Positions 11,220-33,133 of a stretch of 39,704 nt of DNA are shown here, one piece after another. The notes under the pieces were generated by a model. It made no database searches. It was not told where the DNA came from and saw nothing but the letters and a program-made list of their open reading frames with translations. The first letter of the stretch is position 1; each line of letters opens with the position of its first letter. Both the position numbers and the translations under genes were made by a program. This stretch comes from Gemmatimonadaceae bacterium. Its GTDB lineage: Bacteria > Gemmatimonadota > Gemmatimonadetes > Gemmatimonadales > Gemmatimonadaceae. The DNA lies in the NCBI GenBank assembly GCA_026786185.1, contig JAJAYP010000165.1, positions 1 through 39,704 on the forward strand, in the 5' to 3' direction.

Positions 11220-14200
11220 TCACTTCGCCGGCGCCGCGAAGCGCACGCCCGGCATCCGTTCCGCCATGTCCTTGAGCGCCGTGTAGCGCGCGGCGAGCGG
11301 CACGAACTGCTGCACCGTGGAATGGTCCGCGAAGCGATGCACCGCCTCCCACACGCGCGGATCGCGCTCGGCCAGCGTCGCCGCGCAATCGGCCACCAAC
11401 CACGCCGCGGCATACACATCCATCGGTTCGAGCCGCTCGACCGCCGTGCGAAATCGCACCTGCGCGGCGTCATGCCGGCCGGCATGCGCATCGATGCGGA
11501 TCGCCAGTGATTCCAGTAGCTCGCGCCCCTGGAACCACCAGTCGGTGCGGCCGGCGAAGATCTGATACGCTGAATCGAGCGCAGCATGAGCCGCGGGCAT
11601 CGCATCCAGCCGGAGCGCAGCGAGTCCGACACCCGCATGCGCTCCCACCGCGATGTCCTCTGCGTCCAGTTCCGTCGCCAGCGCCGCCGTCTCGCGATAC
11701 AGCCGCTCCGCCTCTTCGGCCGCGCCGCGCTCGCGCTCGAGGTTCGCCAGGTTGTACAGCGCGACGAGGCGATGCGCGTTGTTGCGCAGCGTCGTGTACA
11801 GCCGCAATGCTTCCTGCAGTGCCTCGTGCGCCCCGGTGAAGTCGCCGGCGCGCAGCCCGATGACGCCGAGGTTCACCGACGCATTGGCGGCGACATCCAG
11901 CGTCTGCGCATCGCGGGCGATCGTCAACGCGGCCCGGAACGCGTCGGCGCCTCCGAGGTCGTCGCTCGTGCGCATGCGGGCGATGCCGAGCGAAAGGAAG
12001 GCGCGCGCCTCCATGGCGCGGTCGCTGCGACCTCGCGCGCGATCGACGAGCCGCTGCAACAGGTCCACTGCATCCGACGGGCGGGCGGCGAGCAGGGTGG
12101 TGGCGAGGCGATACATGGCCTCGTCGGCCAGCCCATCACTGCCGTTCTCCTCGGCGATTCGCACCGATTCCTCGGCGATACGAATCGCCTCGTCCGTCTC
12201 GCCCATGCGCGCGAGTGTCTGCACAAGCAGCGACCGGGTCTGCACGATATCGGCGCAACTGCCCACTCGTTCGGCAGTTGCGAGCAGTTCGCGACACTCG
12301 ATTTCCGTCTCGCGTGCGCCCTGGCCGAGTCGCACCCTCGCCTGAAGTCGGCGCAGTTCCACCGGGACCGCCTGCCCGGGCTTCGCGGCGAACGACGGCG
12401 ACGCGAGAATGGCATCGCACGAGCGCTCCACGTCTGCCCATCGTCCTGACTGCTCTGCCGCGCGCGCGATCTCGTCGTGCACGACGGCGCTCTCGTCGTC
12501 GTTGCCGGCGTGCTGGAGGGCGTGCCGCAGAAACTCGGCCGCCTCGTCCAGCGCGTAGAGCGTCATCGCGCGCGCGGCGGCCTTGCGGCACCATTCGTAC
12601 GCCTTGCCCGAATTTCCGCTGCGTGCGTAGTGCGACGCGATGCGGTCGATCGCGGTCGGCGAGCGGAGCACGAGCACGTCGGCGATCTTTTCATGCTTCA
12701 CACGCTGCCGCGCCGGGCTCACCGAATGCAGCACAGCATCGATGAGGAGCGCGTGCGCGAACTGGTAGGTGTCGTCATCGTGCTCGCGCGCCGGCTCGAT
12801 CACCGATGTGGCGAGTCCGGCGTCGATCGCGTCCAGTACCGCCTCCAACGAGACGTCCGCCGCCTCGGACAACAACGCGAGCGGGAAGGTCCGCCCGATC
12901 GCCGCGGCGGTGACGAGGATCTTCATCGCGTCGGCCGACAGGCGCGACAGCCGGCGCCCGACGAGATCCGTCATGCCGGCCGGCAGCGACAGTGCGCTCG
13001 GAATGGTCCACGTCCACGACGTGCCGACGTAGGTGAAGACCCCTTCCTCCGCCATCGTCCGCAGGAGCTGCGTCACGAGGAACGGGTTGCCTTCCGTATG
13101 GCGCAGCACGTAGTCCAGGAGGTCGGCGCCGAGATCGGAGCGATGGAGCGCGCCCTGCAGCCACTCGCGGACTTCTGTCGCCGTGAGCCGCTCCAGCCGC
13201 AGCTCGCGCACACGTTCGTCGCGGGAAAGTCGCTGGCGTCGCTCTCGCACTGGTCCGTACGCTGCTTCCTCGCTCCGGATCGTGAGTGCGATGCAGATGC
13301 GTTCCGTCGTGAGTTGCGCGAGCACGTACTCCAGGGCTTCCCAGCTCGCCGTGTCCGCCCAGTGCATGTCCTCGAGCACGATCGTCAGCGGGCGCGCTTC
13401 GCTCGCGCCGCGCAGGAACGACACCAGCTCTTCCAGCAGCCGGTGTCCCTGGAGCGGATCGAGCTGCGCCGTCATCGACGTGGCCGGCGTGCCCGCGCGA
13501 AGCGGCGTGATGAGCCGGGCGAGCACGGGCCACTGCCTGGCCGGTGCGATGCCGAGCTCGTAAATGCCGGAGAGGGCTTCGGCCCACACGCCGAACGGCG
13601 GCCGGCTCTCGGTCTCCATCGCACGTCCCGTCACCATCACCGCGCCTCGCAGGCGCACTTCCGGCAACAGCTGTCGCACGAGCGACGACTTGCCGACGCC
13701 GGCTTCGCCGATCACGAGACGCGCCTGCGGCGTGCCGTGCGCGCTGTTGTCCAGCGCCGTCACGAGCGAGCGCAGTTCGATCGAGCGACCGACGAAGCGG
13801 CTGAGCACCAGTTGCGGCGCGCCCTGACTTTCCATCCCGGCCACGATGACCTTGTCGCGCCCCTCGCGCTTCGCCTCGAACAGGGCACGATCCGCCGCGG
13901 AGAACATCGCCTCGAAGTTCTCTCCGTGCTGCGGCGCCGTCGCGACGCCTACCGAAAGCGTCACGCTCATCGCGCGCTCCGGCTGATCGCGCAGCGGGAT
14001 CTGCAGCTCCGCCGTCGTCCGCCGGATCTCCTCGGCGATCGCCTTGCCGCCGTCGGCGTCGAGGCCGGGCAGGAGGATCACGAACTCGTCGCCCGCGTAC
14101 CGGCCCACGTACTGCCCTGGCCGCAACTGCTCGCGAATGACGCCGACCACGAGGCGCAGGGCATCGTCACCCGCGAGGTGGCCGAACGTATCGTTCACCG

Positions 14201-16028
14201 ACTTGAACTGGTCGACGTCGACCACGAGCAGCGTCACCGGCGCTCCCGTCCGACGCCGTTCGGCCAGTACCGCGGTGATGACGTTCGTGAAGGCGCGTCG
14301 CACCAACGCGCCGGTGAGGTCGTCCTCCTCGGAGACCGTCACCGTGCCGTTCTTGCCCGAGCGCCGCACCGGCATCGCCCGCTGTGCGGCCGCCGGCGCG
14401 TTCACGGTTCCGCGACGCACCATCTCCTCGAATTTCACGAAGAGTTGCGGGTCGAACTGCTTGCCGACGTCGCGGCGCATGATCTCGATCGCCTCGAGCT
14501 GCGAGAACGCGCGCTTGTAGCTGCGCTCCGTCGTCAACGCGTCGTATACATCCGCCACGCAGAGGATGCGGGCCGGCAGCGGAATCGCCTCGGCGACGAG
14601 GCCGTCGGGGTAGCCTTTGCCGTCCCATCGCTCGTGATGGCTGCGCACCATGGGCGAGACGTCCCAGGGAAACTGCACATCCGCCAGCATCTGCTCGCCA
14701 GCTTCTGGATGCTTCCGCACCAGCGCCCACTCCTCTTCCGTGAGCTTGCCGGGCTTGTTCAGCACTTCGGCTGGAACGATCAGCTTGCCGACATCATGCA
14801 GCAGGGCACCGATCCGGAACCAGAAAAGCGAGTTCTCGTCCAGCCCCGCCTTGGCCGCGAGCGCGCCGGCGAGATCGGCGACGCGCTCGCAATGACCCTG
14901 CGTATGAATGTCCTTCGATTCGATCGACTCGCCCCATTTCCGCACGACGTCGAGAAAATCGCCCTCCAGCCGCGCCATCCGCCTGCCCACGTCCGCCAGC
15001 TCGTGTCGTGCGCGCAGCTGGGTGAAGCAGGAGTGGGCGCGGTTGAGCGCCTGCAAGGTCTCGCGATTGCGGCCGAGACGGCCGTACAATTCCGCGAGCT
15101 CACGATTCGTGTCGCCCTCGAGCGCGAGGTCGTTGGCGGCGGCGGCCATCGCTCGTCCCTTGACGAGATGGGTCTCGGCCGCGGCCAGGTCGCCTGTCTC
15201 GCGCGCGATGATCCCGTAGACTTTCTCCGCCTCACCGTTCGCCCGCGCGTCGTCGAGATGCTCGGCTAGCGCCATCGCGCGGTCGCACCGGCGTTTGGCC
15301 TCGGCGAAATCGCGCTTCTCGATCTGGAGCGCTGACGAATTGACCTCGAGCTGGATGCGCGTCGAGAGGCCGCCGAGGGCGTTCGCGATCGTCAGTGCCT
15401 CGGTGAACGCTTCCTCGGCCGCGTCGTGCCGTCCGAGCGCCATGTTCGCCATGCCCAGGTTGTTGAGCGCGACGAGGATGTTGTCGAGGAGCGAGTACAG
15501 GCGACCGTGCGCGAGCGCGTCCTGGTAGTAACGCAGTGCCTCCCGGAAATCGCCGCGAATGCTGGCGAGCGTCCCCAGGTTCGTCATCACGTCCACCTGG
15601 AGTCGTGGATCCGTCGTACTCGTGCCGCGCTCGAGGGCTTCGTGGAAGAGTTGTTCCGCGTGGTCGAGATCGCCCTGCCGCCAGCGTACCGCGGCGAGCA
15701 CGTTGAGCGCATGGCCGAGCGCATTGCGCTCGTCGCCCAGCTCGGCCGTGGCCACCGCGGCCGTGGCGCAGTCCTCGGCCGCCTGGTAGTCCGCATCCAC
15801 CTCGTAAGAGCGCGCGATCCACCGCAGCAGCATCGAGGCGAGCGAGGGCGACGGCGTCGTGATGCTGCGCAGTGCCTGCTCGTAGAGCGCGCGGGCTTCG
15901 CCGCGGCGGCCCAGCTTGTCGAGCGCGCGGGCGTCTTCGATCAGTGCGCGCGTGGACGGGTGTTCCGCCGGTGAATCCACCAGGCGGAGGTGCACGGCTC
16001 GCGCGGTACTATCGGAGGTCGATGCCAC
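11220..16028 (-). CDS. Giant signalling protein, copy 1: TPR - HD-GYP - GGDEF (AGDEF) - STAND/AAA ATPase - TPR
   Basis: 'ALLHDVGKLIVP' + 'HHERWDGKGYPDGL' (HD-GYP); 'VDVDQFKSVNDTFGHLAGDDAL...GRYAGDEFVILLPG' (GGDEF family); 'VIGEAGVGKSSLVRQLLP' Walker A and 'LTIVLEDMHWAD' Walker B; flanking TPRs. GTG start at 16028 chosen by alignment to copy 2. Confidence 0.93.
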   Translation of the reverse strand: MASTSDSTARAVHLRLVDSPAEHPSTRALIEDARALDKLGRRGEARALYEQALRSITTPSPSLASMLLRWIARSYEVDADYQAAEDCATAAVATAELGDERNALGHALNVLAAVRWRQGDLDHAEQLFHEALERGTSTTDPRLQVDVMTNLGTLASIRGDFREALRYYQDALAHGRLYSLLDNILVALNNLGMANMALGRHDAAEEAFTEALTIANALGGLSTRIQLEVNSSALQIEKRDFAEAKRRCDRAMALAEHLDDARANGEAEKVYGIIARETGDLAAAETHLVKGRAMAAAANDLALEGDTNRELAELYGRLGRNRETLQALNRAHSCFTQLRARHELADVGRRMARLEGDFLDVVRKWGESIESKDIHTQGHCERVADLAGALAAKAGLDENSLFWFRIGALLHDVGKLIVPAEVLNKPGKLTEEEWALVRKHPEAGEQMLADVQFPWDVSPMVRSHHERWDGKGYPDGLVAEAIPLPARILCVADVYDALTTERSYKRAFSQLEAIEIMRRDVGKQFDPQLFVKFEEMVRRGTVNAPAAAQRAMPVRRSGKNGTVTVSEEDDLTGALVRRAFTNVITAVLAERRRTGAPVTLLVVDVDQFKSVNDTFGHLAGDDALRLVVGVIREQLRPGQYVGRYAGDEFVILLPGLDADGGKAIAEEIRRTTAELQIPLRDQPERAMSVTLSVGVATAPQHGENFEAMFSAADRALFEAKREGRDKVIVAGMESQGAPQLVLSRFVGRSIELRSLVTALDNSAHGTPQARLVIGEAGVGKSSLVRQLLPEVRLRGAVMVTGRAMETESRPPFGVWAEALSGIYELGIAPARQWPVLARLITPLRAGTPATSMTAQLDPLQGHRLLEELVSFLRGASEARPLTIVLEDMHWADTASWEALEYVLAQLTTERICIALTIRSEEAAYGPVRERRQRLSRDERVRELRLERLTATEVREWLQGALHRSDLGADLLDYVLRHTEGNPFLVTQLLRTMAEEGVFTYVGTSWTWTIPSALSLPAGMTDLVGRRLSRLSADAMKILVTAAAIGRTFPLALLSEAADVSLEAVLDAIDAGLATSVIEPAREHDDDTYQFAHALLIDAVLHSVSPARQRVKHEKIADVLVLRSPTAIDRIASHYARSGNSGKAYEWCRKAAARAMTLYALDEAAEFLRHALQHAGNDDESAVVHDEIARAAEQSGRWADVERSCDAILASPSFAAKPGQAVPVELRRLQARVRLGQGARETEIECRELLATAERVGSCADIVQTRSLLVQTLARMGETDEAIRIAEESVRIAEENGSDGLADEAMYRLATTLLAARPSDAVDLLQRLVDRARGRSDRAMEARAFLSLGIARMRTSDDLGGADAFRAALTIARDAQTLDVAANASVNLGVIGLRAGDFTGAHEALQEALRLYTTLRNNAHRLVALYNLANLERERGAAEEAERLYRETAALATELDAEDIAVGAHAGVGLAALRLDAMPAAHAALDSAYQIFAGRTDWWFQGRELLESLAIRIDAHAGRHDAAQVRFRTAVERLEPMDVYAAAWLVADCAATLAERDPRVWEAVHRFADHSTVQQFVPLAARYTALKDMAERMPGVRFAAPAK

Positions 16029-16068
16029 GGATGGGCGCCCGGGATCTTGGAAATGAGGTAGTGGAGCT

Positions 16069-16134
16069 TCAGTGTCCGGCGGCCCACAGAGTGCGTGGCA
16101 CCGCCGGACACTGACCAGCCCGCGCGAGGCGGGC
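16069..16134 (-). promoter_or_regulatory. Two adjacent strong stem-loops between smORF and regulator copy 1 (attenuator, terminator or processing element)
   Basis: TCAGTGTCCGGCGG (16069-16082) / CCGCCGGACACTGA (16101-16114): perfect 14-bp inverted repeat, with an inner CCAC/GTGG; then GCCCGC-gcgag-GCGGGC (16118-16134). Confidence 0.7.
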
Positions 16135-16157
16135 CGTCCAGCGATCATGCTCTAGAC

Positions 16158-16331
16158 TCAGCTAGACGCCACGATGTAACCGGACCGGCGGGCGCTGTAC
16201 GCCGCGACGTCCATCGTGCTCTTCTTCACGGAACCGGTGGTCCCGTTCCGGCTCAGCGACTCGGACAAGCTCGCTGCCCCGGCCAACACGGCGACGCCAG
16301 CGCAAAGCGTCAATGCGATGCGACGAATCAT
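16158..16331 (-). CDS. Small secreted/anchored peptide candidate (57 aa), absent from the supplied ORF track
   Basis: Read from the minus strand: MIRRIALTLCAGVAVLAGAASLSESLSRNGTTGSVKKSTMDVAAYSARRSGYIVASS*; positively charged N-terminus + hydrophobic core; lies between lipoprotein 1 and regulator 1, same strand. Confidence 0.6.
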   Translation of the reverse strand: MIRRIALTLCAGVAVLAGAASLSESLSRNGTTGSVKKSTMDVAAYSARRSGYIVASS

Positions 16332-16406
16332 TTGTGGTCTCCCGTACGGCAGTACACGGCTTCGCGTACTACCCGTGGTTGAGGATCAATGAGTGGGGAA
16401 CAGCGG

Positions 16407-17060
16407 TTAGAAACCGAGGAAGGCGTCGGCCGACTCGGTGAGCTGAGCGATCACGTAACCGCTGAAGTGCTTGATCCGACGGAATACCACCTTGTTCTCC
16501 ACATCGACGTTCGACTTGAGCTCCACGTCGGTCAACGATTCGTCAACGCACGACGTCTCGTTGCAGTACTTCATGACGCGACTCGCATCGATCGACGCCT
16601 GATTCGACACGACCAGGTACAGACTGACGGTCTTGTCGGGGCTGAAGCGCATCGCCGGCTGGAAATCGATGCTGGGGTGATCGGTCGCGGCATTCTTCAC
16701 CACCGCGGTGATCGTCAGCGCTTCGTTCTGCAGCGAGCAGTCGTTGTTCCAGTGAGCCGCGCCGTACGACGAGGTGGCCAGGTCGCAGATCGCGTTCGCC
16801 GGGATGAACAGCTGGCTGGCTCCGAACGCCAACACGTGGTCGCGCGTCGGATCGATCGAGAAGCTGTAGGTGCCATCGCTGGCGCCCACGAGCGCCTTCT
16901 GCGCGTCGGTCGGAATGAAGGGCGACGTCGCCAGCTTTGACGAAAGCGCCGGCGCATTCGGAGCAGTCGACTCACCAGCGCAGCCGGTGAGCAACGTGCT
17001 CGCCAGGACCAGCGCCGAGAGCAGTGAATTTGGGTAGCGAGCCATCATCGGCAATCGCAT
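16407..17060 (-). CDS. Cys-rich lipoprotein, copy 1, ending in FRRIKHFSGY (ZU5-like beta domain suspected)
   Basis: Lipobox LLTGC; 'AICDLATSSYGAAHWNNDC', 'YCNETSC', 'PAMRFSPDKTVSLYLVV', 'FRRIKHFSGYVIAQ'; paralog at 22232-22849; start set at MRLPMMARY. Confidence 0.85.
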   Translation of the reverse strand: MRLPMMARYPNSLLSALVLASTLLTGCAGESTAPNAPALSSKLATSPFIPTDAQKALVGASDGTYSFSIDPTRDHVLAFGASQLFIPANAICDLATSSYGAAHWNNDCSLQNEALTITAVVKNAATDHPSIDFQPAMRFSPDKTVSLYLVVSNQASIDASRVMKYCNETSCVDESLTDVELKSNVDVENKVVFRRIKHFSGYVIAQLTESADAFLGF

Positions 17061-17254
17061 CGGGACCTCTCGAGCCTGAGCTCTTCGAAAAGGGAGGGAA
17101 GCTGAAACCACCACGTGAAGCCTGTGGTCGTGGCAGTAGTCTCTTTGGCAATGCCGAGGCCATGTGGTGAGCTCTGCAGCACCCGTCAAACTGTCTCGCT
17201 CATTGGGGTACCAAGCCCTGATTAGGACACTTTGACCGCACACAAACGATATCC

Positions 17255-17283
17255 TGACCGACCGATTTTCCGCCGCTAATCGG
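17255..17283. promoter_or_regulatory. Shared upstream element, copy 1: TGACCGACCGATTTTCCGCCGCTAATCGG
   Basis: Perfect inverted repeat CCGATT-N10-AATCGG; aligns without gaps to 23024-23052; ~195-220 bp upstream of the lipoprotein 1 start. Confidence 0.45.
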
Positions 17284-17348
17284 GCAAACTGCAACGAAAC
17301 GTGTATTTTGCGACAGGAGATTGAGTGATTGAAAACACAACTGATGTA

Positions 17349-20300
17349 TTAATCGGTCACTCGTACATCTAATATTGCCGAACTGTCAAGAAATATATCA
17401 CCGAGGCCGATAAATGCAAATGGCCCGCTTGAGCGGCCTGCTGATGGACGGTCGGCGAGGTCCCGCAAGGCCGTGAATCGCGCCGCAAGCGGCACGTAAT
17501 CCTGCACGGATGGATGAGCGGCGAATCGATTGACGACCTTCCAGACCCCTTCGTCGCCATCCGCGATTTCGGCGGCACAGTCCGCTACCATCCATGCGGC
17601 GGGATAGACCTCGAGCATCTCCAGGCGGGCGACGGCGGAATGGAACCGGCGCCGAGCACCCCCCAGGTCACCATCGAGCGCGGCCATGCGAACTTCGAGC
17701 GACTCCAGCAGCTCGCGACCCTGAAACCACCAGTCGGTCCGTGATCCCAGTGCCAGGGTTGCGGCAGCCAGCGCCGCGCGAGCTACAGCCTTTTCGTGCA
17801 GACGCAGGGCGCTGTTCCCGACGCCGGCGTGTGCACCGATCACGATGTCCGTGGCCCCGAGTTGCTCCGCCAGCACGACGGTCTGCTGATAGATCGCCAG
17901 TGCCGCCTGGGCGTCGCCTCGCTCCCGCTCGAGATTGGCCAGGTTATAGAGCGCGATGAGGCGATTGGTGTTGCTTCGGAGGGTCGTGTAGAGGCGAAGC
18001 GCTTCCTGACATGCCTCGTGCGCCGCGACGAAGTCGCCTCGGCGCAAGTCGCTCACTCCCAGGTTCATCGACGCATTCGCCGCGACGTCCAGCGCCTGCG
18101 CGTCGCGCGCGACGGCGAGTGCGGCCCGGAATGCGTCGGTGCCGGAGCGCTCGTCCCGCGTGCGTGTGCGCGCCACGCCCAGCGAGAGGAGCGCGCGCGC
18201 TTCCAGCGGGCGGTCGCGACGCGTGCGCGCGCCCGCCACGAGTCGAAGCAGCAGGTCGACAGCCTCCGCCGGCCGCACGTTGTTCAGCGTGACGGCGAGC
18301 CGAAGTGTCGCCTCACCAGCCAGCGATTCGTCGCCGCCCTCCTCCGCGAGCAGCACCGATTCGCGCGCGATCCGGATCGCGTCCTCGGTCTGGCCCATGC
18401 GGGCGAGCGCCTGCACGAGCAGCGACCTGACCTGCACCACGTCCGTTCGGCTTCCGAGTCGCTCGGCGACAGCGAGCATGTCGCGACATTCGAGCTCCGT
18501 TTCCCGCGCGCCCAGTCCCAGCCGGACGCGCGCCTGCAGCCGCCGCTGTTGCGCGGGCACCGCTCGCGAGTAGGCGCCGACGAGTATCGGAGAGGCGAGC
18601 ATCGCATCGCACCAGCGCTCGACCTCGGCCCATCGGCCCGACAGCTCGGCGGCACGCGCCAGCTCATCGTAGGCCGCCACCCGCTGCTGCTCCGTCGCGG
18701 CATGCGCCAGGGCGAGCGTAAGGAAGTCGGTTGCCTCATCCAGCGCGTACAACGACAGCGCGCGCGCCGCGGCACTTCGACACCAGGTGTACGCCTGCGC
18801 CGCGTCACCGCTCAGTGCGTAGTGCGACGCCACCTGGTCGACCGCCTGCGGCGTGCGCACGGCCAGCAGGTCGGCGACGCGACGATGCGTGAGGCGCTGC
18901 CGCGCGGGACTCACCGAGCGCATCAACGCATCCATGAGCAACGCGTGCGAGAACTGATAGGTATCGTCGTCCTGCCCGTGAGCCGGTTCGAGCACCGACG
19001 TCGCGAGTCCGCTGTCTACCGCATCGAGCACGGCGTCCATCGAGACGGCGGCGGCCTCGGCGAGCAGGTCGAGCCGAAAGGTGCGCCCGATCGCCGCCGC
19101 CGTGACGAGGATGCGGAGCGCGTCGTTGGGCACGCGTGACAGGCGTCGACCCACCAGGTCGGACATGCCGGCCGGCAGGACGAGCGTCGTCGGAATCGTC
19201 CAGACCCACGCGCTGCCGCTATATGTGAAAACCTCCTCCTCCATCATCGTCCGCAGGAGCTGCATGACGAGAAACGGATTTCCTTCCGTGTGGCGGAGGA
19301 CGAATTCCAGCAGATCGTCACCCAGCTCGGTCCGATGCAGGGCGGCTTGCAGCCACTCGCGCATCTCGGTGGCGGTGAGTCGCTCGAGTTGCAGCTCGCG
19401 CACACGCTCGTCGCGCGACAGACGGCGGCGGCGTTCGCGCACCACGCCGTACGCGGCCTCTTCGCTGCGCAGCGTGATCGCGATGAATACGCGCTCGACG
19501 GCGAGCTGCGACATCACGTACTCGAGCGCGTCCCAACTGGCCGTGTCGGCCCAGTGCATGTCCTCCAGCACGAGCATGAGCGGTCGCGTCTCGCTCGTCA
19601 CCCGGAGAAAACCAACCAGCTCCTGCAAGAGTTGGTGTCCATGGCTCGGATCGAGCGGCGGCAACGCAACGGGATCGAGCGTTCCGCGCAGCGACGGGAC
19701 GAGGCGCTCGAGCAGCGGCCAGGGACGCGAGGTCGCGAGACCGAGCCCGTGCAGCGCGAGCACCAGTTCCGCCCACGGCCCGAATGGCGCGCGGCTCTCG
19801 CTTTCGAGTGCCCGGCCCGTCACCAGGGCGGCGCCACGCAGTCGCGCTTCGGGCATGAGTTGTCGCACGAGCGTCGATTTCCCCACTCCGGCCTCGCCAA
19901 TGATGAGGCGGCATTGCGGTCCCACCCGGCCGCTGTCATCGAGGGCGCTCACGAGCGCCCGCAGCTCCGGTACTCGTCCCACGAACCGGCTGAACGCGAG
20001 CTGCGGGGGTCCGTCATGCTCGGTGCTCGCGACGACGACCGTGTCGCGGCCCGCGCGCTTGGCCTCGAACAGCGCGCGATCGGCAGACGTGAACAGCGCC
20101 TCGAACGTCTCCCCATGCACCGGCGCCGTCGCGACACCGATCGACAGCGTCACCGATAATGCCTGCCCACTCGATTCGCGCAGGGGAATCGGGAGCGAGG
20201 CCATCGTGTGACGCACTTCGTTCGCGAACGCCTGCGCTGCCCGTGCATCCAACCCCGGCAGGAGCACCACGAACTCGTCTCCTCCATAACGCCCCACGTA

Positions 20301-22223
20301 CTGGCCCGGCCGGAGGTTGTCCCGGATCGCCCCCGAGACGAGTCGCAGCGCGTCGTCACCGGTGAGATGGCCGTACGTGTCGTTCACCGCCTTGAACTGA
20401 TCGACGTCGAGCACGAACATCGACACCGGCGCCCCCGTGCGCCGACGCTCGGCGAGCACGGCCGCCGTGACGTTGACGAACGCCCGACGCACCAACGCTC
20501 CGGTGAGATCGTCCTCCTCCGACGCCATCACGGCGCCGATCGCGCCGGTGGTTCGCGATGGGATGGCGAGGTGCGCCACGGGCGGCGTCTTTACCGCGCC
20601 ACGCCGCACGAGATCCTCGAACTTGATGAAGAGTTGCGGGTCGAACTGCCGCCCCACCTCGCGGCGCATGATCTCCATGGCCTCGAGGTGCGAGTACGCG
20701 CGCTTGTAGCTGCGCTCCGTCGTCAGCGCATCGTACACGTCCGCGATGCACAGGATGCGCGCCGCCAGCGGGGTCGCGTCGCCCTCGAGACCGTCGGGGT
20801 ACCCCTTGCCGTCCCATCGTTCGTGGTGATTGCGCACCATCGGCGTGACGTCCCACGGGAACTGCACATCCGCCAGCATCCGCTCACCCGCGTCCGGGTG
20901 CTGCCGCATGAGCGCCCACTCCTCGTCGGTGAGCTGCCCCGGACGATTCAGCAGGTCGGCTGGGACGATGAGCTTCCCGACGTCATGCAGCAACGCACCC
21001 ATGCGAAACCAGAACAGCGATGCGTCGTCGAGCCCGGCCTTTGCGGCGAGCGCGCTCGCGAGGTCGGCGACTCGTTCGCAGTGCCCTTGGGTGAGCACGT
21101 CCTTCGACTCGATCGACTCACCCCAGCGTCGAACGACGTCGAGGAACTCGCCTTCGAGCTTCGTGAGGCGGCGTGTCACATCGGCCAGCTCGTGCCGCGC
21201 GCGCAGCATGGTGAAGCAGACGTGCGCGCGGTTCAGTGCCTGAATCGTTTCCCGATTGCGCCCGAGCCGCCCATACACCTCGGCCAGCTCGCGGCTTGCC
21301 TCACCTTCCAGTCTCAGATCGCGCACGCCAGCGCCTGCCTCCCCCGCACGCCGCAAGTGCCCCTCGGCGGCGACGAGATCGCCCGTATCCCGCGCGATGA
21401 TGCCGTAGACCTTTTCCGCCTCACCCTTCGCGCGCGCGTCACCGTGGTGTGCGGCGAGCGACATAGCGCGGTCGCAGCGGCGTCTCGCCTCGTCGAAGTC
21501 CCGGCGCTGGATGGCGAGCACGGCGCAGTTCAACTCGAGCTCGATGCGCAGCGACAGCCCACCGAGCGCGTTGGCAATCGTCAGCGCTTCGGCAAAGGCA
21601 CTGTCCGCCGCATCCAATCGGCCCAGCTCCATGTTCGCCATGCCTAGCTCGTTCAGCGTGGCGACCATGTCGTCGAGGAGCGAGTGGCGGCGGCCGTGAG
21701 CGAGCGCATCCTGGTAATACCGGAGCGCCTCACGAAAATCGCCGCGGATCTTCGCCAGCGAGCCAAGATTGATCGTGACATCCACGTGAAGGCGTGGATC
21801 GGTCGAGCTCGCGCCGCGTTGGAGCACGTCCTGAAAGAGCTGCTGCGCGACATCGAGCTCGCCCTCATGCCAGCGCGCGGCCGCGAGCACGTTGAGCGCG
21901 TGACCGAGCGCATTGCGGTCGTCCGCAAGCTCGGCCGTCGCCACCGCCGCTTCCGCACAATCGGCCGCCGCCTGATAATCCGCGTCGAGCTCGTACGTGC
22001 TGGCGATCCTGCGCAGCAGCATCGACGCCACCGACGCCGACGTCGTCTCCAGGCTGCGCAGGGCGCGCTCGTACAGCGCTCGCGCCTCCGCACGCTGCCC
22101 CAGCTTGTCGAGCGTACGTCCTTCCTCGATCAGCGCGCGCGCCGGGGCGTCCGCTTCCTCCGGGTCCACCAGGCGGAGATGCGCAGCACGAGCGTGCGAG
22201 GAACCATCCGATGAACGTGACAC
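17349..22223 (-). CDS. Giant signalling protein, copy 2: TPR - HD-GYP - GGDEF - STAND/AAA ATPase - TPR
   Basis: Collinear with 11220-16028; 'LLHDVGKLIVP', 'KGYPDGL', 'GRYGGDEFVVLLPG', 'IIGEAGVGKSTLVRQLMP', 'LMLVLEDMHWAD'; GTG start at VSRSSDGSS, 8 nt after the lipoprotein 2 stop. Confidence 0.93.
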   Translation of the reverse strand: MSRSSDGSSHARAAHLRLVDPEEADAPARALIEEGRTLDKLGQRAEARALYERALRSLETTSASVASMLLRRIASTYELDADYQAAADCAEAAVATAELADDRNALGHALNVLAAARWHEGELDVAQQLFQDVLQRGASSTDPRLHVDVTINLGSLAKIRGDFREALRYYQDALAHGRRHSLLDDMVATLNELGMANMELGRLDAADSAFAEALTIANALGGLSLRIELELNCAVLAIQRRDFDEARRRCDRAMSLAAHHGDARAKGEAEKVYGIIARDTGDLVAAEGHLRRAGEAGAGVRDLRLEGEASRELAEVYGRLGRNRETIQALNRAHVCFTMLRARHELADVTRRLTKLEGEFLDVVRRWGESIESKDVLTQGHCERVADLASALAAKAGLDDASLFWFRMGALLHDVGKLIVPADLLNRPGQLTDEEWALMRQHPDAGERMLADVQFPWDVTPMVRNHHERWDGKGYPDGLEGDATPLAARILCIADVYDALTTERSYKRAYSHLEAMEIMRREVGRQFDPQLFIKFEDLVRRGAVKTPPVAHLAIPSRTTGAIGAVMASEEDDLTGALVRRAFVNVTAAVLAERRRTGAPVSMFVLDVDQFKAVNDTYGHLTGDDALRLVSGAIRDNLRPGQYVGRYGGDEFVVLLPGLDARAAQAFANEVRHTMASLPIPLRESSGQALSVTLSIGVATAPVHGETFEALFTSADRALFEAKRAGRDTVVVASTEHDGPPQLAFSRFVGRVPELRALVSALDDSGRVGPQCRLIIGEAGVGKSTLVRQLMPEARLRGAALVTGRALESESRAPFGPWAELVLALHGLGLATSRPWPLLERLVPSLRGTLDPVALPPLDPSHGHQLLQELVGFLRVTSETRPLMLVLEDMHWADTASWDALEYVMSQLAVERVFIAITLRSEEAAYGVVRERRRRLSRDERVRELQLERLTATEMREWLQAALHRTELGDDLLEFVLRHTEGNPFLVMQLLRTMMEEEVFTYSGSAWVWTIPTTLVLPAGMSDLVGRRLSRVPNDALRILVTAAAIGRTFRLDLLAEAAAVSMDAVLDAVDSGLATSVLEPAHGQDDDTYQFSHALLMDALMRSVSPARQRLTHRRVADLLAVRTPQAVDQVASHYALSGDAAQAYTWCRSAAARALSLYALDEATDFLTLALAHAATEQQRVAAYDELARAAELSGRWAEVERWCDAMLASPILVGAYSRAVPAQQRRLQARVRLGLGARETELECRDMLAVAERLGSRTDVVQVRSLLVQALARMGQTEDAIRIARESVLLAEEGGDESLAGEATLRLAVTLNNVRPAEAVDLLLRLVAGARTRRDRPLEARALLSLGVARTRTRDERSGTDAFRAALAVARDAQALDVAANASMNLGVSDLRRGDFVAAHEACQEALRLYTTLRSNTNRLIALYNLANLERERGDAQAALAIYQQTVVLAEQLGATDIVIGAHAGVGNSALRLHEKAVARAALAAATLALGSRTDWWFQGRELLESLEVRMAALDGDLGGARRRFHSAVARLEMLEVYPAAWMVADCAAEIADGDEGVWKVVNRFAAHPSVQDYVPLAARFTALRDLADRPSAGRSSGPFAFIGLGDIFLDSSAILDVRVTD

Positions 22224-22231
22224 GGGCGAGT

Positions 22232-22849
22232 CTACGACTCCACGTAGTATCCGCTGAAGTGCTTGATGCGGCGGAAGAGTGTCCTGCTCCCGTAGTCGAG
22301 ATGCGTGGCCAGTGTCGGATCCAGCTCCGCCTCGTCGATGCACGCATCCATCGACTGCGTGGCACAGTACAGGATGCGCCACGCTGTCGGGTCAGGAGTT
22401 AGCGTCGGGACGTAGAGCGAGAGGATGACGGTCCGTCTCGCACTGAAGCGCATCGCTGGCGACACGTCGATGCGCGGGATCCCGGTCGCAGTGGAACGCA
22501 CCAGCGCCGTGATAGTCACCGGCCCACTCTCGCGCGGGCAATCCAGCTCGAACGAGGACTGGCCATACCCGGATGTCGCGGTACAAATGGCCCTGGACGG
22601 AATGTCGAGCGTGTGCGGTCCGAAATGCAACACGTTTCGGCGCCGAGGATCGATCGTGACCGTATACGATGTAATGGTCCCGCCGTCGAACTCGTCGATC
22701 GCGGCGGTGCCGTTGCCTTTCACATCGCCCGCTCGCGTTCCCGATGCAGGCGAAACAGGCTCGAGCGACGATGGTGCGGTCGCGTCCATCGAGCAGGCGC
22801 TCGACAGGACGATGCCTGACAGAAGCAGGCCGATCGAGCGAGAGCGCAT
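22232..22849 (-). CDS. Cys-rich lipoprotein, copy 2, ending in FRRIKHFSGYYVES
   Basis: Signal/lipobox-like 'LLLSGIVLSSAC'; 'LDIPSRAICTATSGYGQSSFELDC', 'PAMRFSARRTVILSLYV', 'LYCATQSMDACIDEAELD', 'LFRRIKHFSGYYVES'; start set at MRSRSIGLLL. Confidence 0.83.
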   Translation of the reverse strand: MRSRSIGLLLSGIVLSSACSMDATAPSSLEPVSPASGTRAGDVKGNGTAAIDEFDGGTITSYTVTIDPRRRNVLHFGPHTLDIPSRAICTATSGYGQSSFELDCPRESGPVTITALVRSTATGIPRIDVSPAMRFSARRTVILSLYVPTLTPDPTAWRILYCATQSMDACIDEAELDPTLATHLDYGSRTLFRRIKHFSGYYVES

Positions 22850-23023
22850 TGTGAAGGGACGGAGGAAGAGACGAACAAGGGAGAGAAACGTGCTTCTCTC
22901 GACTGTCCCGGACCATCGCCTGGCCCGGTTGCGTTCCGACATGCGGAAAGGCAACGGTGGGGCCACGAATGTGCGATGCGTCACCTCGGTCAGGCTGTCA
23001 CGCTAACGACACGATGTTCGTCG

Positions 23024-23052
23024 TGATCGGCCGAAAAGTCCGAGCCAATCGG
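23024..23052. promoter_or_regulatory. Shared upstream element, copy 2: TGATCGGCCGAAAAGTCCGAGCCAATCGG
   Basis: 18 of 29 positions identical, ungapped, to 17255-17283; conserved ends TGAYCGRCCGA and AATCGG; ~180-200 bp upstream of the lipoprotein 2 start. Confidence 0.42.
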
Positions 23053-28131: not shown

Positions 28132-29517
28132 TCAAACAGCGTCACTCAGGCTCGTGAAGTTGAAGTCGCGAACCTTGAGCGTGGGGAACACCACGTTCCC
28201 GCCCGATTCGGTGCCCGCGATACGGTCGGCGCGGCCAATCATCTCCAGGTTATTCAGCATGAACAACGGGCTCTCGTTGAAGCGAAGATTCTTCACCGAT
28301 CGCGTCACCTTCCCGTTCTCGATCAGGAAGGTCCCATCCCGTGTGAGTCCGGTATACAGCACGGTGCGGGGATCGACCTGACGCAGATACCACAGCCGGG
28401 TGACGAGGATGCCGCGCGGGGTCGACGCGATCATCTGCTCGGTCGTCGCGTCTCCGCCTACCATCTTCACCGATCCCAGCCCGCCGTTCGGGCGCACGTT
28501 CTTCTTCTGCGCCCAGAAGCGTGAGTAGTTGAGCTGCTTCAGCACGCCGTTCTCGATCCAGACCTCGCGGCCGAGCGGGAGTCCTTCGCCAGTCCAGGGT
28601 TGGCCGAGCAGCTGCTGATCGGCGGGGTCGGAAAAGAGCGTGACCTTCGAATCAACGATCTTCTCGCCGATCTTCGTGCCGCCTCCCTGCTTGGCGAATG
28701 CCGAGCGTCCTTCGTCGGCGCTGCGCGCATCGAGGGAGAACGCCAGCAGCTGTACGAGATCGCCGACCGCCTGAGGTTCGAGGATCACCGTGTAGCGGCC
28801 TGGCTCGACGGCCACCGGATTGCGCGAGGCACGCGCTTTCTGGATGGCGCGATCGCTCACCGACTTGAAGTCGATCTGTCGCCAGTCCGGATGATCCGCC
28901 GCCGCCCAGCCGGAGCCGGTGCCGTCGTTGGTGCGGACGGTGAGCTGGTAGTTGGCGCTGGTAGAGGGAAAGTAGGCATACAACCCCGTGTTGGACGCGA
29001 TGGCGTTGTAGTTCGTGCCGGCGACGATGAAGCCAGCAGCCGCGAGATCTCCTGCCGCCTTCGCGGCGTCGATGGCCGTGCGCGCGGCCGCCGCGCGGTC
29101 GGCCGGGGTGAGATTCGCCGTCGAATCGAACCAGGAATCGACGTCGCCGTACTGCTGCGGAGGCAGCAACGGCATGTTCTCGGGATCATCTGGCGCAAGC
29201 TTCGCAATCGCCTCGCTCTGTCGCACGGCTCGCTCCACGCCGGCGGCCGAGAAATCGCTCGTCGTGACGACGGCGTGCTTGGGCCCGTATCCGCTTTGCA
29301 CCACGAGCTGCGAATTGCTCACGCCGCCCGAGGTCGAGATGCGATTGGCGGCGAAACGGATGTTGCCGGTGTACCCGCCGTTGAGCTGCACGCCGATGGT
29401 GTCAGCCTTCGACAGCTTCACGATGCGCTCGAGAAACGCCTGCGCCTCGGCCCGGGACATCATGTCGTTGGGCGACAGCGGGCTGTCCGTTCCGAACAGG
29501 CTTCTGGGGGCGCTCAT
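28132..29517 (-). CDS. TldD/PmbA family protein (PmbA/TldE-like)
   Basis: 461 aa; C-terminal TldD/PmbA-type 'GGNVVFPTLKVRDFNFTSLSDAV'; no HExxxH; start overlaps the upstream TldD stop by 4 bp. Confidence 0.85.
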   Translation of the reverse strand: MSAPRSLFGTDSPLSPNDMMSRAEAQAFLERIVKLSKADTIGVQLNGGYTGNIRFAANRISTSGGVSNSQLVVQSGYGPKHAVVTTSDFSAAGVERAVRQSEAIAKLAPDDPENMPLLPPQQYGDVDSWFDSTANLTPADRAAAARTAIDAAKAAGDLAAAGFIVAGTNYNAIASNTGLYAYFPSTSANYQLTVRTNDGTGSGWAAADHPDWRQIDFKSVSDRAIQKARASRNPVAVEPGRYTVILEPQAVGDLVQLLAFSLDARSADEGRSAFAKQGGGTKIGEKIVDSKVTLFSDPADQQLLGQPWTGEGLPLGREVWIENGVLKQLNYSRFWAQKKNVRPNGGLGSVKMVGGDATTEQMIASTPRGILVTRLWYLRQVDPRTVLYTGLTRDGTFLIENGKVTRSVKNLRFNESPLFMLNNLEMIGRADRIAGTESGGNVVFPTLKVRDFNFTSLSDAV

Positions 29518-31139
29518 GCCTTTCTCCCCGTGTTGATGACGTTGATGTTGCGGAAGCGGCTCGGCACGCAGCCGTGACTCACCGCATTCGATTGTGCAGG
29601 CTGTCCCTTTCCGTCGAAGAAGCTCGCGCCCATCTCATAGCTCGCGCGTCCACCCATCATGTCCAGGGCATTCCAGAATTCCGGCGTGCGTATCTGATAC
29701 GCGACGTCCTTCAACATGCCGATGACCTTTCCTCCCTTGATCTCATAGAACAACTGACCGCCGAACTGTGCGTTGTAGCGCTGCTGATCGATCGAGAAGC
29801 TGCCGTCGCCCACGATGCCGATGCCGCGATCGGTCGCGGCGATCAGGTCGTCCCAGCCCTGCTCCTTCGTGCCCGGGAGCTGCGAGACGTTCGGCATGCG
29901 CTGGAACTGCACGCTGCTCCAGTTGTCGCCATGACTGCACCCGTGGCTTCGCACGGGTCGCTTCTGGCTGGTGTACCACCAGTCCAGCATGGGCGCCTGC
30001 TCGCGCGTGGTCTGGTAGTCGTTGACGACACCCTCCTTGATGATCAGGAACTCGTCCGGCTTCACGCCGTCGTCGTCCCATCCGATCGTCGAGCATCCAC
30101 CTTCCTGCGAGCGATCGCCCTGGATGTTCAGCATGCTCGGCCCGTAACGGAACGAGCCGAGCTTCTCGCGCGGCGGCGCCAGGAAGCTCGTTCCAGCGTA
30201 GTTGGCCTCGTACCCCATGGCGCGATCGAGCTCGGTGGGATGCGCGATGCTCTCGTGAATGGTGAGCCACAGGTGGTTCGGATGCAGGATGAGATCGTAC
30301 CGACCCACGTCCACCCCCTTGGCCTTGAGCTTCTCGGCCGCCTCTTCGCCCCATTGCCGCGCATTCTCCACGGGCCTGGCGGCGACGAGGTATTCGTAGC
30401 CGCGCGCCATCGGCTGGATCACGTTGGTGCGCGTCTGGAAGTCGGAAAAGTCGGGCTTCACCGCCGTCGCGGCGAAGGGGAGCCAGCTGCGTATCACCGT
30501 CTGCGTCGTGAACGTCCCTTCCGTGTTCGCGTAGTTCTTCTCTTCCTTCACGAAGAACATGTTGCTGTTCACGAACTTCACCCCCGGCACCTTCATGGCT
30601 TCGGCATTCGCGCGGATGAGCAGGTCGGCCTTCTGCTCGATCGGCACGGTGAAGGGATCGATCGTGTGCGGGGTGACGTAGCGTCCATCCGGAGTGGGGC
30701 TGGCGGGTGCGAGGCGCACCCGGTCGGCCGCCGTCAGCGCATTGGCTTTCGCGATCGCCAGCGCCTCTTTCGTAGCCGCCACCACGCCGCTCTTCGTGAG
30801 ATCGCGAGAAGCGCCGAACCCCCACGTGCCCTTCACGAGCACCCGGACGCCGACGCCGAGGGTGTCCGTGTCGACCACGTTGATGATCTGCTGCTCGCGA
30901 GTGATGACGAAGTTGTTGCGGTAGCGTCCGATGCGGGCATCGGCGAACTCCGCCCCACCCATCGTCGCCGCGTTCAGCGCTTCGGTGAGCAGCTCCTTCG
31001 TCGCCGGATCCATTGCCGGCGGTTCGGACGGGGGAGACGCGCCGCGGGCGAGCGAATCGGCTCTCGCCAGTGCCGGCGCGCCCAGCGCGAGGGCGCCGGC
31101 GGCGGCGCCGGTTTTCAGGAAGTCACGCCTGGTGGTCAT
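29514..31139 (-). CDS. TldD-like metallopeptidase with Tat signal
   Basis: Tat signal MTTRRDFLKTGAAAGALALG; 'LTIHESIAHPTELDRAMGYEANYAGTSF' HExxxH. Confidence 0.9.
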   Translation of the reverse strand: MTTRRDFLKTGAAAGALALGAPALARADSLARGASPPSEPPAMDPATKELLTEALNAATMGGAEFADARIGRYRNNFVITREQQIINVVDTDTLGVGVRVLVKGTWGFGASRDLTKSGVVAATKEALAIAKANALTAADRVRLAPASPTPDGRYVTPHTIDPFTVPIEQKADLLIRANAEAMKVPGVKFVNSNMFFVKEEKNYANTEGTFTTQTVIRSWLPFAATAVKPDFSDFQTRTNVIQPMARGYEYLVAARPVENARQWGEEAAEKLKAKGVDVGRYDLILHPNHLWLTIHESIAHPTELDRAMGYEANYAGTSFLAPPREKLGSFRYGPSMLNIQGDRSQEGGCSTIGWDDDGVKPDEFLIIKEGVVNDYQTTREQAPMLDWWYTSQKRPVRSHGCSHGDNWSSVQFQRMPNVSQLPGTKEQGWDDLIAATDRGIGIVGDGSFSIDQQRYNAQFGGQLFYEIKGGKVIGMLKDVAYQIRTPEFWNALDMMGGRASYEMGASFFDGKGQPAQSNAVSHGCVPSRFRNINVINTGRKA

Positions 31140-31280
31140 GGGTATCGGGGAAAAGGGTCGTTCACGACGGACACATCGATTATACGACAGCACGAGGCCG
31201 GTGTTTCGTTGGCGCGACGGCCGGACGGGATGGAATCATCGCCGTCACGACCCGGTGGCGGAACGCGCGCAGATCGCGGG

Positions 31281-32939
31281 TCACGCGGTCCTCCCCGTGT
31301 TCACCACATTCACGTTCCGGAACCGGCTCGGCGGGCAGCCATGACTCACCGCGTTCGACTGCCCGGGCTGTCCCTTGCCGTCGTTGAAGGTGCCACCCAT
31401 TTCCCAGCTCTTCGCACCGCCGAGGAGGTCGAGCGACTTCCAGAACTCGGGTGTTCGCATCTGGTAGGCGACGTCCTTCAGCATCCCGACGATCTTGCCG
31501 CCCCGGATCTCGTAGTAGAGCTGGCCGCCGAACTGCGCATTGTAGCGTTGCTGGTCGATGGAGTACGAACCACGGCTGAAGATGGCGATGCCGCGGTCGG
31601 TCGCGGCGATGAGGTCATCCCATCCCAGGTCCTTTTCTCCGGGCATGAGGGAGACATTCGGCATGCGCTGGAACTGGACGTCGGATGACCGCTGGGCGTA
31701 GGAGCAGCCGTGCGATCGCATCGGCTTCCCCTGCCGCGCGTACCACCAGTCGAGCATCGGCGCCTGTTCGCGCGTCGTCTGGTAGTCCACCAGTACGCCG
31801 CGGCGGATGATGTCGAATCGATCGGGCTCCACGCCTTCGTCGTCCCACCCGATCGCAGCAAGCGACCCGGGTTGATCGCGGTCACCAGTGATGTGCATGA
31901 GGGGCGAGCCGAACTGGAGCGTTCCCAGCACCTCGCGGGGCGGCGCGGCGAAGCTGGTGCCGGCGTAGTTGGCTTCGTAGCCGAGCGCGCGATCGAGCTC
32001 GGTGGGATGGGCGACCGATTCGTGAATGGTGAGGAACAGGTGGCTGGGGTGGAGCACCAGATCGTACCGGCCGACATCCACCGATCTCGCCTTCAGCTTT
32101 TCCGAGGCCTGCTCGCCCCAGAGACGTGCGTTCTCGACGGGCTTCTTCTCGAGGAGGTATTCGTATCCGCGACCCATCGGCGCGATCACCTCGCCACGCG
32201 ACTGGAAGTCGGTGCGGTCGGTGGACACGGCGGTCGCGGTGAACGGCATCCAGCTCCGGACGGCCGTCTGCTGCGTGAACGTGCCCTCGGAATTGGCGTA
32301 GCTCTTTTCCTCCTTCACGAAGAGCATCGAGCTGGTGACGAAGCGAACGTTCGGCGCCTTCAACGCCGCCGCGTTGGTGCGCAGCAGCAGGTCGGCCTTC
32401 TGCTCGATCGGCACGTCGAACGGATCAATGGTGTACGCCGTCTGCCAGCGCCCATCGCGCACGACGGGCGCTGGCGCCAGCCGCACCCGGTCCGATTCGG
32501 GCAGTCGGTTGGCGCGCGCGATGGCGACCGCTTCACGTGCGGCGGCCACGACGCCGGCCTTCGTGAGGTCGCGAGTGGCGCCGAATCCCCACGTACCCTG
32601 CACAAGCACCCGCACTCCGACGCCCATCGTGTCGCCCTCGGCCACGTTCACGATCTGCTGTTCCCGCGTGCTCACGGAGCTGTTCCGATAGCGTGACAGG
32701 CGAGCGTCGGCGAACTGCGCGCCGCCACTTCGTGCCGCATCGAGCGCCTCGAGCAGAAGCTCGCGGACCACGGGATCCATGGCCGGCGGGCGGAGGTCTG
32801 CACCGGGCTCCAGGCGATCATCCAGCGAACTGGCCATGGCCGCTGCCGGGGCAAGCGCGCCGGCGGCGGCCGCGAGCGCCGCTGCCGAGGTTGCGCCCGA
32901 GGTGACGGTGGCCAGGAATTTTCGGCGGCTCTGGTTCAT
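31281..32939 (-). CDS. TldD-like metallopeptidase with Tat signal (tandem paralog)
   Basis: Tat signal MNQSRRKFLATVTSGATSAAALAAAAGA; 'LTIHESVAHPTELDRALGYEANYAGTSF'; collinear with 29514-31139. Confidence 0.9.
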   Translation of the reverse strand: MNQSRRKFLATVTSGATSAAALAAAAGALAPAAAMASSLDDRLEPGADLRPPAMDPVVRELLLEALDAARSGGAQFADARLSRYRNSSVSTREQQIVNVAEGDTMGVGVRVLVQGTWGFGATRDLTKAGVVAAAREAVAIARANRLPESDRVRLAPAPVVRDGRWQTAYTIDPFDVPIEQKADLLLRTNAAALKAPNVRFVTSSMLFVKEEKSYANSEGTFTQQTAVRSWMPFTATAVSTDRTDFQSRGEVIAPMGRGYEYLLEKKPVENARLWGEQASEKLKARSVDVGRYDLVLHPSHLFLTIHESVAHPTELDRALGYEANYAGTSFAAPPREVLGTLQFGSPLMHITGDRDQPGSLAAIGWDDEGVEPDRFDIIRRGVLVDYQTTREQAPMLDWWYARQGKPMRSHGCSYAQRSSDVQFQRMPNVSLMPGEKDLGWDDLIAATDRGIAIFSRGSYSIDQQRYNAQFGGQLYYEIRGGKIVGMLKDVAYQMRTPEFWKSLDLLGGAKSWEMGGTFNDGKGQPGQSNAVSHGCPPSRFRNVNVVNTGRTA

Positions 32940-33133
32940 TCGTCTGGATGTGATCGAGCGGACGATATCCGCGCGGAAGCGGCGCGGAGAGAGGGTGCGT
33001 CGATTCCCGGGTCTATGCGATGGCGATGCCTCTCGACATGTTGGATGCCGGCCAATGCGGACGCAACCTGGGCCCGCGTGGTGGGCGTATTTTTGCGCAT
33101 GTGCGTGAATCACTCATTGGCTCGTTCCACATC

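Follow-up and report, generated by a model that had tools for sequence, protein, structure and literature searches.

The window, a stretch of 39,704 nt, carries twice in succession, both times on the minus strand, a gene for a lipoprotein followed by a gene for a giant regulator with c-di-GMP domains. This arrangement raises the question of whether the two proteins belong together and, if so, how a lipoprotein at the cell surface could be linked to a regulator inside the cell. At the sequence level, the pair forms a recurring module: its lipoprotein has a ZU5 fold and an HF|S motif, SGY peptides are linked to full-length regulators, and oligopeptide transporter genes recur as neighbours at related loci. 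The presence of SGY tails on the ZU5 lipoproteins and on unrelated small precursors, together with these transporter neighbours, suggests that the signal enters the cell in the form of an imported peptide. The original prediction pictured a surface lipoprotein signalling inward; a lineage-specific signalling module is strongly supported, and the picture is incomplete in that it gives no account of the SGY peptides or of the transporter neighbours.

Two tandem units and their recurrence in Gemmatimonadaceae

The features of the two units are as follows.

22232..22849, minus strand: ZU5-fold lipoprotein 2 (205 aa, lipobox Cys19), ending ...RRIKHF|SGYYVES, assigned by homology to lipoprotein 1
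22235..22255, minus strand: codons of the putative released peptide SGYYVES, 3' of the predicted HF|S cleavage site, from the family motif and the SGY-stop scan
17349..22223, minus strand: regulator 2 (1624 aa, GTG start), TPR - HD-GYP - GGDEF - AAA_16 (STAND-type) - TPR, from Pfam and motifs
16407..17060, minus strand: ZU5-fold lipoprotein 1 (217 aa, lipobox Cys27), ending ...RRIKHF|SGYVIAQLTESADAFLGF, assigned by predicted fold
16410..16463, minus strand: codons of a putative 18-aa C-terminal fragment of lipoprotein 1, from the motif and presumed cleavage
16158..16331, minus strand: small ORF (57 aa), MIRRIALTL...ARRSGYIVASS, a secreted-type propeptide encoded after lipoprotein 1 and before regulator 1
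16161..16184, minus strand: codons of the putative mature octapeptide SGYIVASS, from a genus-wide pattern search and synonymous variation
16069..16114, minus strand: hairpin in the interval that separates the small ORF from regulator 1, with arms (TCAGTGTCCGGCGG/CCGCCGGACACTGA) that form a perfect inverted repeat of 14 bp
11220..16028, minus strand: regulator 1 (1602 aa, alternative ATG at 16148), TPR - HD-GYP - GGDEF (AGDEF) - AAA_16 - TPR
14934..15971, minus strand: TPR superhelix at the N terminus of regulator 1, a candidate peptide receptor, from AlphaFold2 and a Foldseek search of the PDB

The same-strand gene pair had been predicted to occur twice, and it does: the lipoproteins share 38% identity over 208 aa (E 4e-40) and the regulators 69% from end to end. 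Pfam recovers the predicted order of TPR, HD-GYP, GGDEF, ATPase and TPR domains as TPR - HD_5 - GGDEF - AAA_16 - TPR, and regulator 2 does begin 8 nt after the end of lipoprotein 2. The two lipoproteins share, as had been noticed, the block FRRIKHFSGY and four cysteines beyond the lipobox Cys; across the wider family, invariance is limited to the lipobox Cys and the first two of these four. A similar element was also thought to lie upstream of both units. This finds no support, the best local match being no better than in shuffled sequences, 19% of which reach it. Consensus searches for sigma-70 promoters and intrinsic terminators likewise returned no more than in shuffles. The 57-aa ORF at 16158-16331 had been overlooked. 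In a congener, the counterparts are 90% identical for copy 1 and 84% for copy 2, whereas copies 1 and 2 are 69% identical to each other. The duplication is thus old and predates the split from the congener, and a recent tandem duplication was rejected. Elsewhere in the window, 5-10 kb from the module, three genes of the TldD/PmbA metallopeptidase family lie in a row (28138-33113, minus strand). TldD/PmbA-type proteases mature some bacterial peptides.

A neighbourhood tally had been proposed as the check on the pairing, in which rare adjacency would speak against it. Among 68 full-size lipoprotein relatives in 118 Gemmatimonadaceae genomes, 52 lie no more than 3 kb from a regulator, in 50 cases with both genes on one strand, and reading of the loci added three further pairs (55/68). 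With so few regulators in a genome of 3-6 Mb, we estimate that a given gene would have one as its neighbour by chance in about 1% of cases. The pair occurs in two arrangements: the lipoprotein either precedes a full-length regulator or follows a short one (GGDEF-like, AAA, TPR). Tandem double units are found in two congeners and in one genome of another genus. The window's own genome has the second arrangement as well, on contig C203 (genome G000; loci L006 and L003), where a third lipoprotein, whose ZU5 tail reads SGYIVASGYTCDPTRQDCGSAPPSP, lies directly 3' of a third, shorter regulator, which lacks the N-terminal TPR and HD-GYP parts and has a degraded GGDEF domain. The first ~60 bases of this contig are low-complexity assembly junk.

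Within the phylum, both protein families appear confined to a single family. Among 298 genomes sampled across the phylum, they were seen in this family alone, with the exception of partial TPR/HD-GYP matches in one other genome; for the regulator, this distribution is a lower bound, because few candidates were scored per genome. Named records with the lipoprotein all belong to Gemmatimonadaceae/Gemmatimonadetes, mostly metagenome assemblies, and include Roseisolibacter sp. H3M3-2. The tally and this restriction to one family strongly support the idea of a lineage-specific signalling module. Many genomes of the family also encode stand-alone TPR-HD-GYP proteins of ~550 aa that match the N-terminal half of the regulators, and the full-length regulator may be a fusion of such a protein with the GGDEF-AAA-TPR form.

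ZU5 fold, HF|S motif and SGY peptides

The window lipoproteins have no match in Pfam or NCBIfam, and a PDB sequence search with a profile of their subfamily (type I) gave no match. The same gene clusters also contain a type II subfamily, whose profile aligns with that of type I (97%) and which finds, in the PDB, ZU5 proteins only (ZO-1, ankyrins and UNC5B). Type II reaches or comes close to the Pfam ZU5 (PF00791) cut-off of 21 bits, which four of the eight relatives tested pass. The AlphaFold2 model of lipoprotein 1 (pLDDT 88.9) retrieves the ZU5 domain of ankyrin-B at ranks 1 and 2 of a Foldseek search of the PDB (probability 1.00, TMq 0.49, E ~0.01), and the modelled likeness is one of fold, not a close one; a search of a viral structure library gave no credible match. 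Across the lipoprotein family, HF[ST]G[YFW] is near-invariant, and in the model the HFSGY site of lipoprotein 1 is placed between two adjacent C-terminal beta-strands. Autoproteolysis occurs at HF|S in Nup98 and PIDD, and at SF|S in CARD8/NLRP1 (PMC3210808); ZU5 autopeptidases have been proposed for bacterial surface proteins (PMC3482391). Given the fold, the near-invariant motif and these precedents, the lipoproteins are expected to cleave themselves at HF|S, which would free a short C-terminal peptide beginning with SGY.

SGYYVES is all that follows the HF site in lipoprotein 2, and many relatives have 7 or 8 residues there (SGYFVEW, SGYMVSE, SGYNVWA, SGYIVAMD, SGYMLALG, SGYNVTAF). Several longer lipoproteins carry a second SGY-like block at the C terminus (GSGYILVSGH, TGYMLAWA, AAGYMLASG), and some ZU5 tails are long and have no SGY ending. 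The ending differs with the type of regulator: it is SGY-like in 30 of 47 lipoproteins beside full-length regulators versus 0 of 27 beside short ones (p 8e-9). At short-regulator loci L108-L140, the ZU5 lipoproteins have Cys-rich tails (CDP...PDC) after HFSGY, possibly disulfide-bonded fragments of 18-35 aa. Two ZU5 genes (upstream of 6863 in L068, and L130:1339-2187) have a broken HFSGY (HAGRS and HFSRY) and retain the C-terminal ends DGSGYVVVE and DGSGYINAE. The two units of the window differ in their peptide, and their counterparts in the congener keep the type (SGYIVASS/SGYIVASS and SGYYVES/SGYFVEW).

SGY tails are also found outside the ZU5 lipoproteins. The 57-aa ORF of unit 1 has a signal-peptide-like start and ends in RRSGYIVASS. 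This tail was first noticed in the window and in one congener, and the wider counts came after. With signal peptides called by a home-made hydrophobicity rule, small ORFs that have such a start and end in [SA]GY make up 8 of 37 near full-length regulators versus 1 of 537 elsewhere, and this lone exception lies directly downstream of another regulator. A scan for SGY-stop in the 1-kb regions that precede full-length regulators returned 33 motifs in sense versus 2 in antisense, with ~1.4 expected from background, an enrichment of ~20-fold; L110 and L224 are the same locus of genome G082 entered twice, and counting it once leaves 31 motifs in 24 of 50 loci. The scan found none upstream of short regulators, which lack the N-terminal TPR and HD-GYP parts. 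About half of the full-length regulators, including the whole basal clade L079-L083, have no SGY-stop in the 1 kb upstream, and in a few of these the motif is downstream or divergent instead.

Within the genus, a whole-genome search for SGY[IT]xA[ST][ST]-stop gave 11 matches in ten genomes and none for the reversed pattern. Each of the 11 comes directly after a ZU5 lipoprotein gene, with a weak ZU5 match in one case, and SGYIVASS has a single match in its own genome. The propeptide has 57 aa in the window, and 51-79 aa or fewer in relatives. Most small propeptides are positive by the hydrophobicity rule; the SGYIIASS propeptides of L277, L279, L283 and L285, of only ~27-30 aa, have no signal peptide visible to it. 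The codons of the SGY peptide vary synonymously, and several loci have precursors that are otherwise unrelated to one another. One regulator clade (L122, L075, L072 and L251) has the ending SGYNVTAF/Y/PAN both on a ZU5 lipoprotein and on small non-ZU5 lipoproteins. Judged from these sequences, it looks as though the SGY peptide itself is the conserved, selected product, common to ZU5 lipoproteins and unrelated small precursors. Most related loci also have strong hairpins, of unrelated sequence, 3' of the small ORF, as would fit a separate gene with an attenuator or terminator behind it.

Transporter neighbours and the candidate receptor

An SBP_bac_5 gene, encoding an oligopeptide-binding type of transporter component, adjoins the full-length regulator in 14 loci (of ~50 full-length regulators), which span six genera and include one in a congener of the window. 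Genes for OppB/OppC-type permeases are also present in ten of the 14. These neighbours stand in several orientations relative to the regulator, and a genome has only 3-5 SBP_bac_5 genes. No SBP_bac_5 neighbour was seen beside short regulators with wide flanks. The window contains no transporter gene, so that import for its two units would depend on one of the five SBP genes that the genome carries at other sites.

Both regulators have HDVGK and HHERWDGKGYP as well as Walker motifs (GEAGVGKS and VLEDMHWAD in regulator 2), with AGDEF in regulator 1 and GGDEF in regulator 2, and no RxxD inhibitory site in the GGDEF domain of either. HD-GYP, GGDEF and Walker motifs are intact in most full-length regulators (HD in 50/51 and GYP in 49/51, one locus being counted twice), and GGDEF is degenerate in most short ones. 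The AAA-TPR part matches the TOMM kinase/cyclase family TIGR03903 below its cut-off, and the TPR part weakly matches HaaT RiPP models. The N-terminal TPR region is found in full-length regulators only. Its AlphaFold2 model in regulator 1 (pLDDT 91.5) retrieves from the PDB by Foldseek eukaryotic LGN/Pins first and then peptide-bound Rap pheromone receptors (TMq 0.62-0.67); as the Rap-like matches rank below LGN, the fold is not specific for a receptor role. Peptides and receptors diverge together (Mantel p 0.002). The attempt to assign the receptor domain from co-divergence of the peptide with single domains was given up, because no domain stands out.

A possible peptide circuit and its alternatives

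We propose, with a probability of roughly 55%, that each unit is a peptide-pheromone circuit made up of a ZU5 lipoprotein or small propeptide, an SGY peptide, oligopeptide import, a TPR receptor and an HD-GYP/GGDEF output. The ZU5-fold precursor would be exported and anchored by its lipobox, and self-cleavage at HF|S would free or expose a short C-terminal SGYxVxx peptide; in many units, a separate small propeptide would supply the same kind of peptide as its last eight residues (SGYIVASS in unit 1). The peptide would leave the cell surface or periplasm, enter through an oligopeptide (SBP_bac_5/OppBC-type) permease and bind a TPR region of the giant regulator. Binding may then shift the state of the STAND ATPase and the balance between c-di-GMP breakdown by HD-GYP and synthesis by GGDEF, so that cell density or spacing would set c-di-GMP. 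Cleavage, release, import, binding and c-di-GMP output are the steps that we infer from the genes and their surroundings. What weighs against the circuit is that many full-length regulators show no SGY peptide, that some propeptides show no signal peptide, and that the window's own units have no transporter gene next to them.

The most serious competitor, which we nevertheless consider unlikely, is a structural or tethered role, in which the SGY segment serves as the final beta-strand of the ZU5 fold and remains bound whether or not cleavage occurs. The small SGY proteins would complement or compete for the fold, and the lipoprotein would be a surface sensor or adhesin to which the regulator responds indirectly. 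The modelled position of HFSGY between two adjacent C-terminal strands fits this, the fragments of known HF|S proteins usually remain associated (PMC3210808), and the ZU5 proteins beside short regulators keep HFSGY yet carry long Cys-rich tails. It is harder to reconcile with the clade of L072, L251 and L075, which has SGY-tailed small precursors at loci that yielded no ZU5 protein next to the regulator, or with L068 and L130, which lost HFSGY but kept a C-terminal SGY, and it leaves the peptide transporter neighbours unexplained. That old tandem duplication simply maintained a regulator and a lipoprotein side by side with no functional link is the least probable of the alternatives. The two copies are plainly paralogous, but adjacency recurs in two gene orders with two regulator types, along with 14 transporter neighbours, and random linkage would not last across more than ten genera.

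Two further readings start from the peptides. A RiPP or peptide-toxin system, with the SGY tail as a modified core peptide and the AAA/TPR protein as its regulator or maturation partner, could draw on the sub-threshold match to TIGR03903, the weak TPR match to HaaT models and the three TldD/PmbA-family genes ~5-10 kb away. Yet the loci read show no conserved modifying enzyme next to the modules, the SGY core is not rich in Cys, Ser and Thr as TOMMs are, the c-di-GMP domains do not fit, and the family matches fall far below curated cut-offs, which makes this reading very unlikely. To sensing of nutrient or environmental peptides we give slightly less weight again: the permease and the regulator would sense foreign peptides, and the ZU5 lipoproteins would be unrelated and nearby through common regulation. 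Nutrition is a common role of oligopeptide permeases, and transporter genes adjoin only 14 of the ~50 full-length regulators; if foreign peptides were sensed, however, one would not expect the genome itself to encode near-invariant SGY peptides just upstream of the regulator.

The pheromone circuit has its closest likeness in the RRNPP systems, for which the published criteria are a Sec-secreted propeptide of 10-100 aa, a receptor of 250-500 aa with peptide-binding TPRs, and directly adjacent genes (PMC10075063). The 57-aa ORF lies within this propeptide range, the ZU5 precursors (205+ aa) exceed it, the propeptide and receptor genes adjoin, and the regulators (1602 and 1624 aa) are far longer than the receptors described. 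As in Rap-Phr, NprR-NprX and PlcR-PapR, where the mature peptide is the last 4-10 residues of a small secreted propeptide, the propeptide gene is next to that of a TPR receptor, here a candidate whose N-terminal fold resembles Rap among other TPR proteins, and an oligopeptide permease is implicated. Unlike them, the module combines a 1600-aa candidate receptor bearing HD-GYP, GGDEF and STAND domains with a ZU5 lipoprotein precursor, a diderm host and a putative c-di-GMP output. Thus, the circuit would work like an RRNPP system but is not a member, since its receptor is too long and one precursor type is a ZU5 lipoprotein.

The individual proteins also depart from their known relatives. The lipoprotein shares the ZU5 fold and an HF|S near the C-terminal strand with the autoproteolytic ZU5/FIIND/Nup98 domains (PIDD, CARD8, NLRP1) and with the ZU5 autopeptidases of polymorphic toxins. 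It differs in being a stand-alone lipoprotein that has no toxin, death or adhesion domain, is partnered with a c-di-GMP protein, and often has only 7-20 aa after the predicted cut. The regulator has the canonical HDxGK, HHExxDGxGYP and [AG]GDEF motifs of composite HD-GYP + GGDEF enzymes, but in it these domains are flanked by two TPR regions and fused to a STAND-type ATPase, and there is no membrane or receiver domain. Its AAA_16 P-loop followed by TPR repeats resembles AfsR/MalT-type STAND/TPR regulators and the AAA-TPR part of the TOMM kinase/cyclase (TIGR03903), from which it is set apart by the lack of a DNA-binding or kinase domain and by scores far below the family cut-off.

A literature search within a limited collection of papers found no peptide-signalling system in Gemmatimonadota and no ZU5 lipoprotein of this kind. 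Peptide quorum sensing through an intracellular TPR receptor has been described as a trait of Gram-positive Bacillota (PMC10075063). The module might be a Gram-negative system in which a self-cleaving surface ZU5 lipoprotein is a pheromone precursor, its SGY peptide of 7-18 aa being re-imported and read by a TPR/STAND c-di-GMP protein, with paralogous units using different peptides (SGYIVASS versus SGYYVES); this more specific proposal is a tentative one, and we put the odds somewhat against it. The model predicts exact peptide sequences and is therefore directly testable. Self-cleaving ZU5 domains are used in apoptosis and inflammasome proteins of animals. If the model is true, ZU5 autoproteolysis would gain a signalling role in bacteria, and Gemmatimonadaceae would possess a Gram-negative counterpart of the peptide 'hormone' systems of Gram-positive bacteria, extending this mode of communication to another cell plan.
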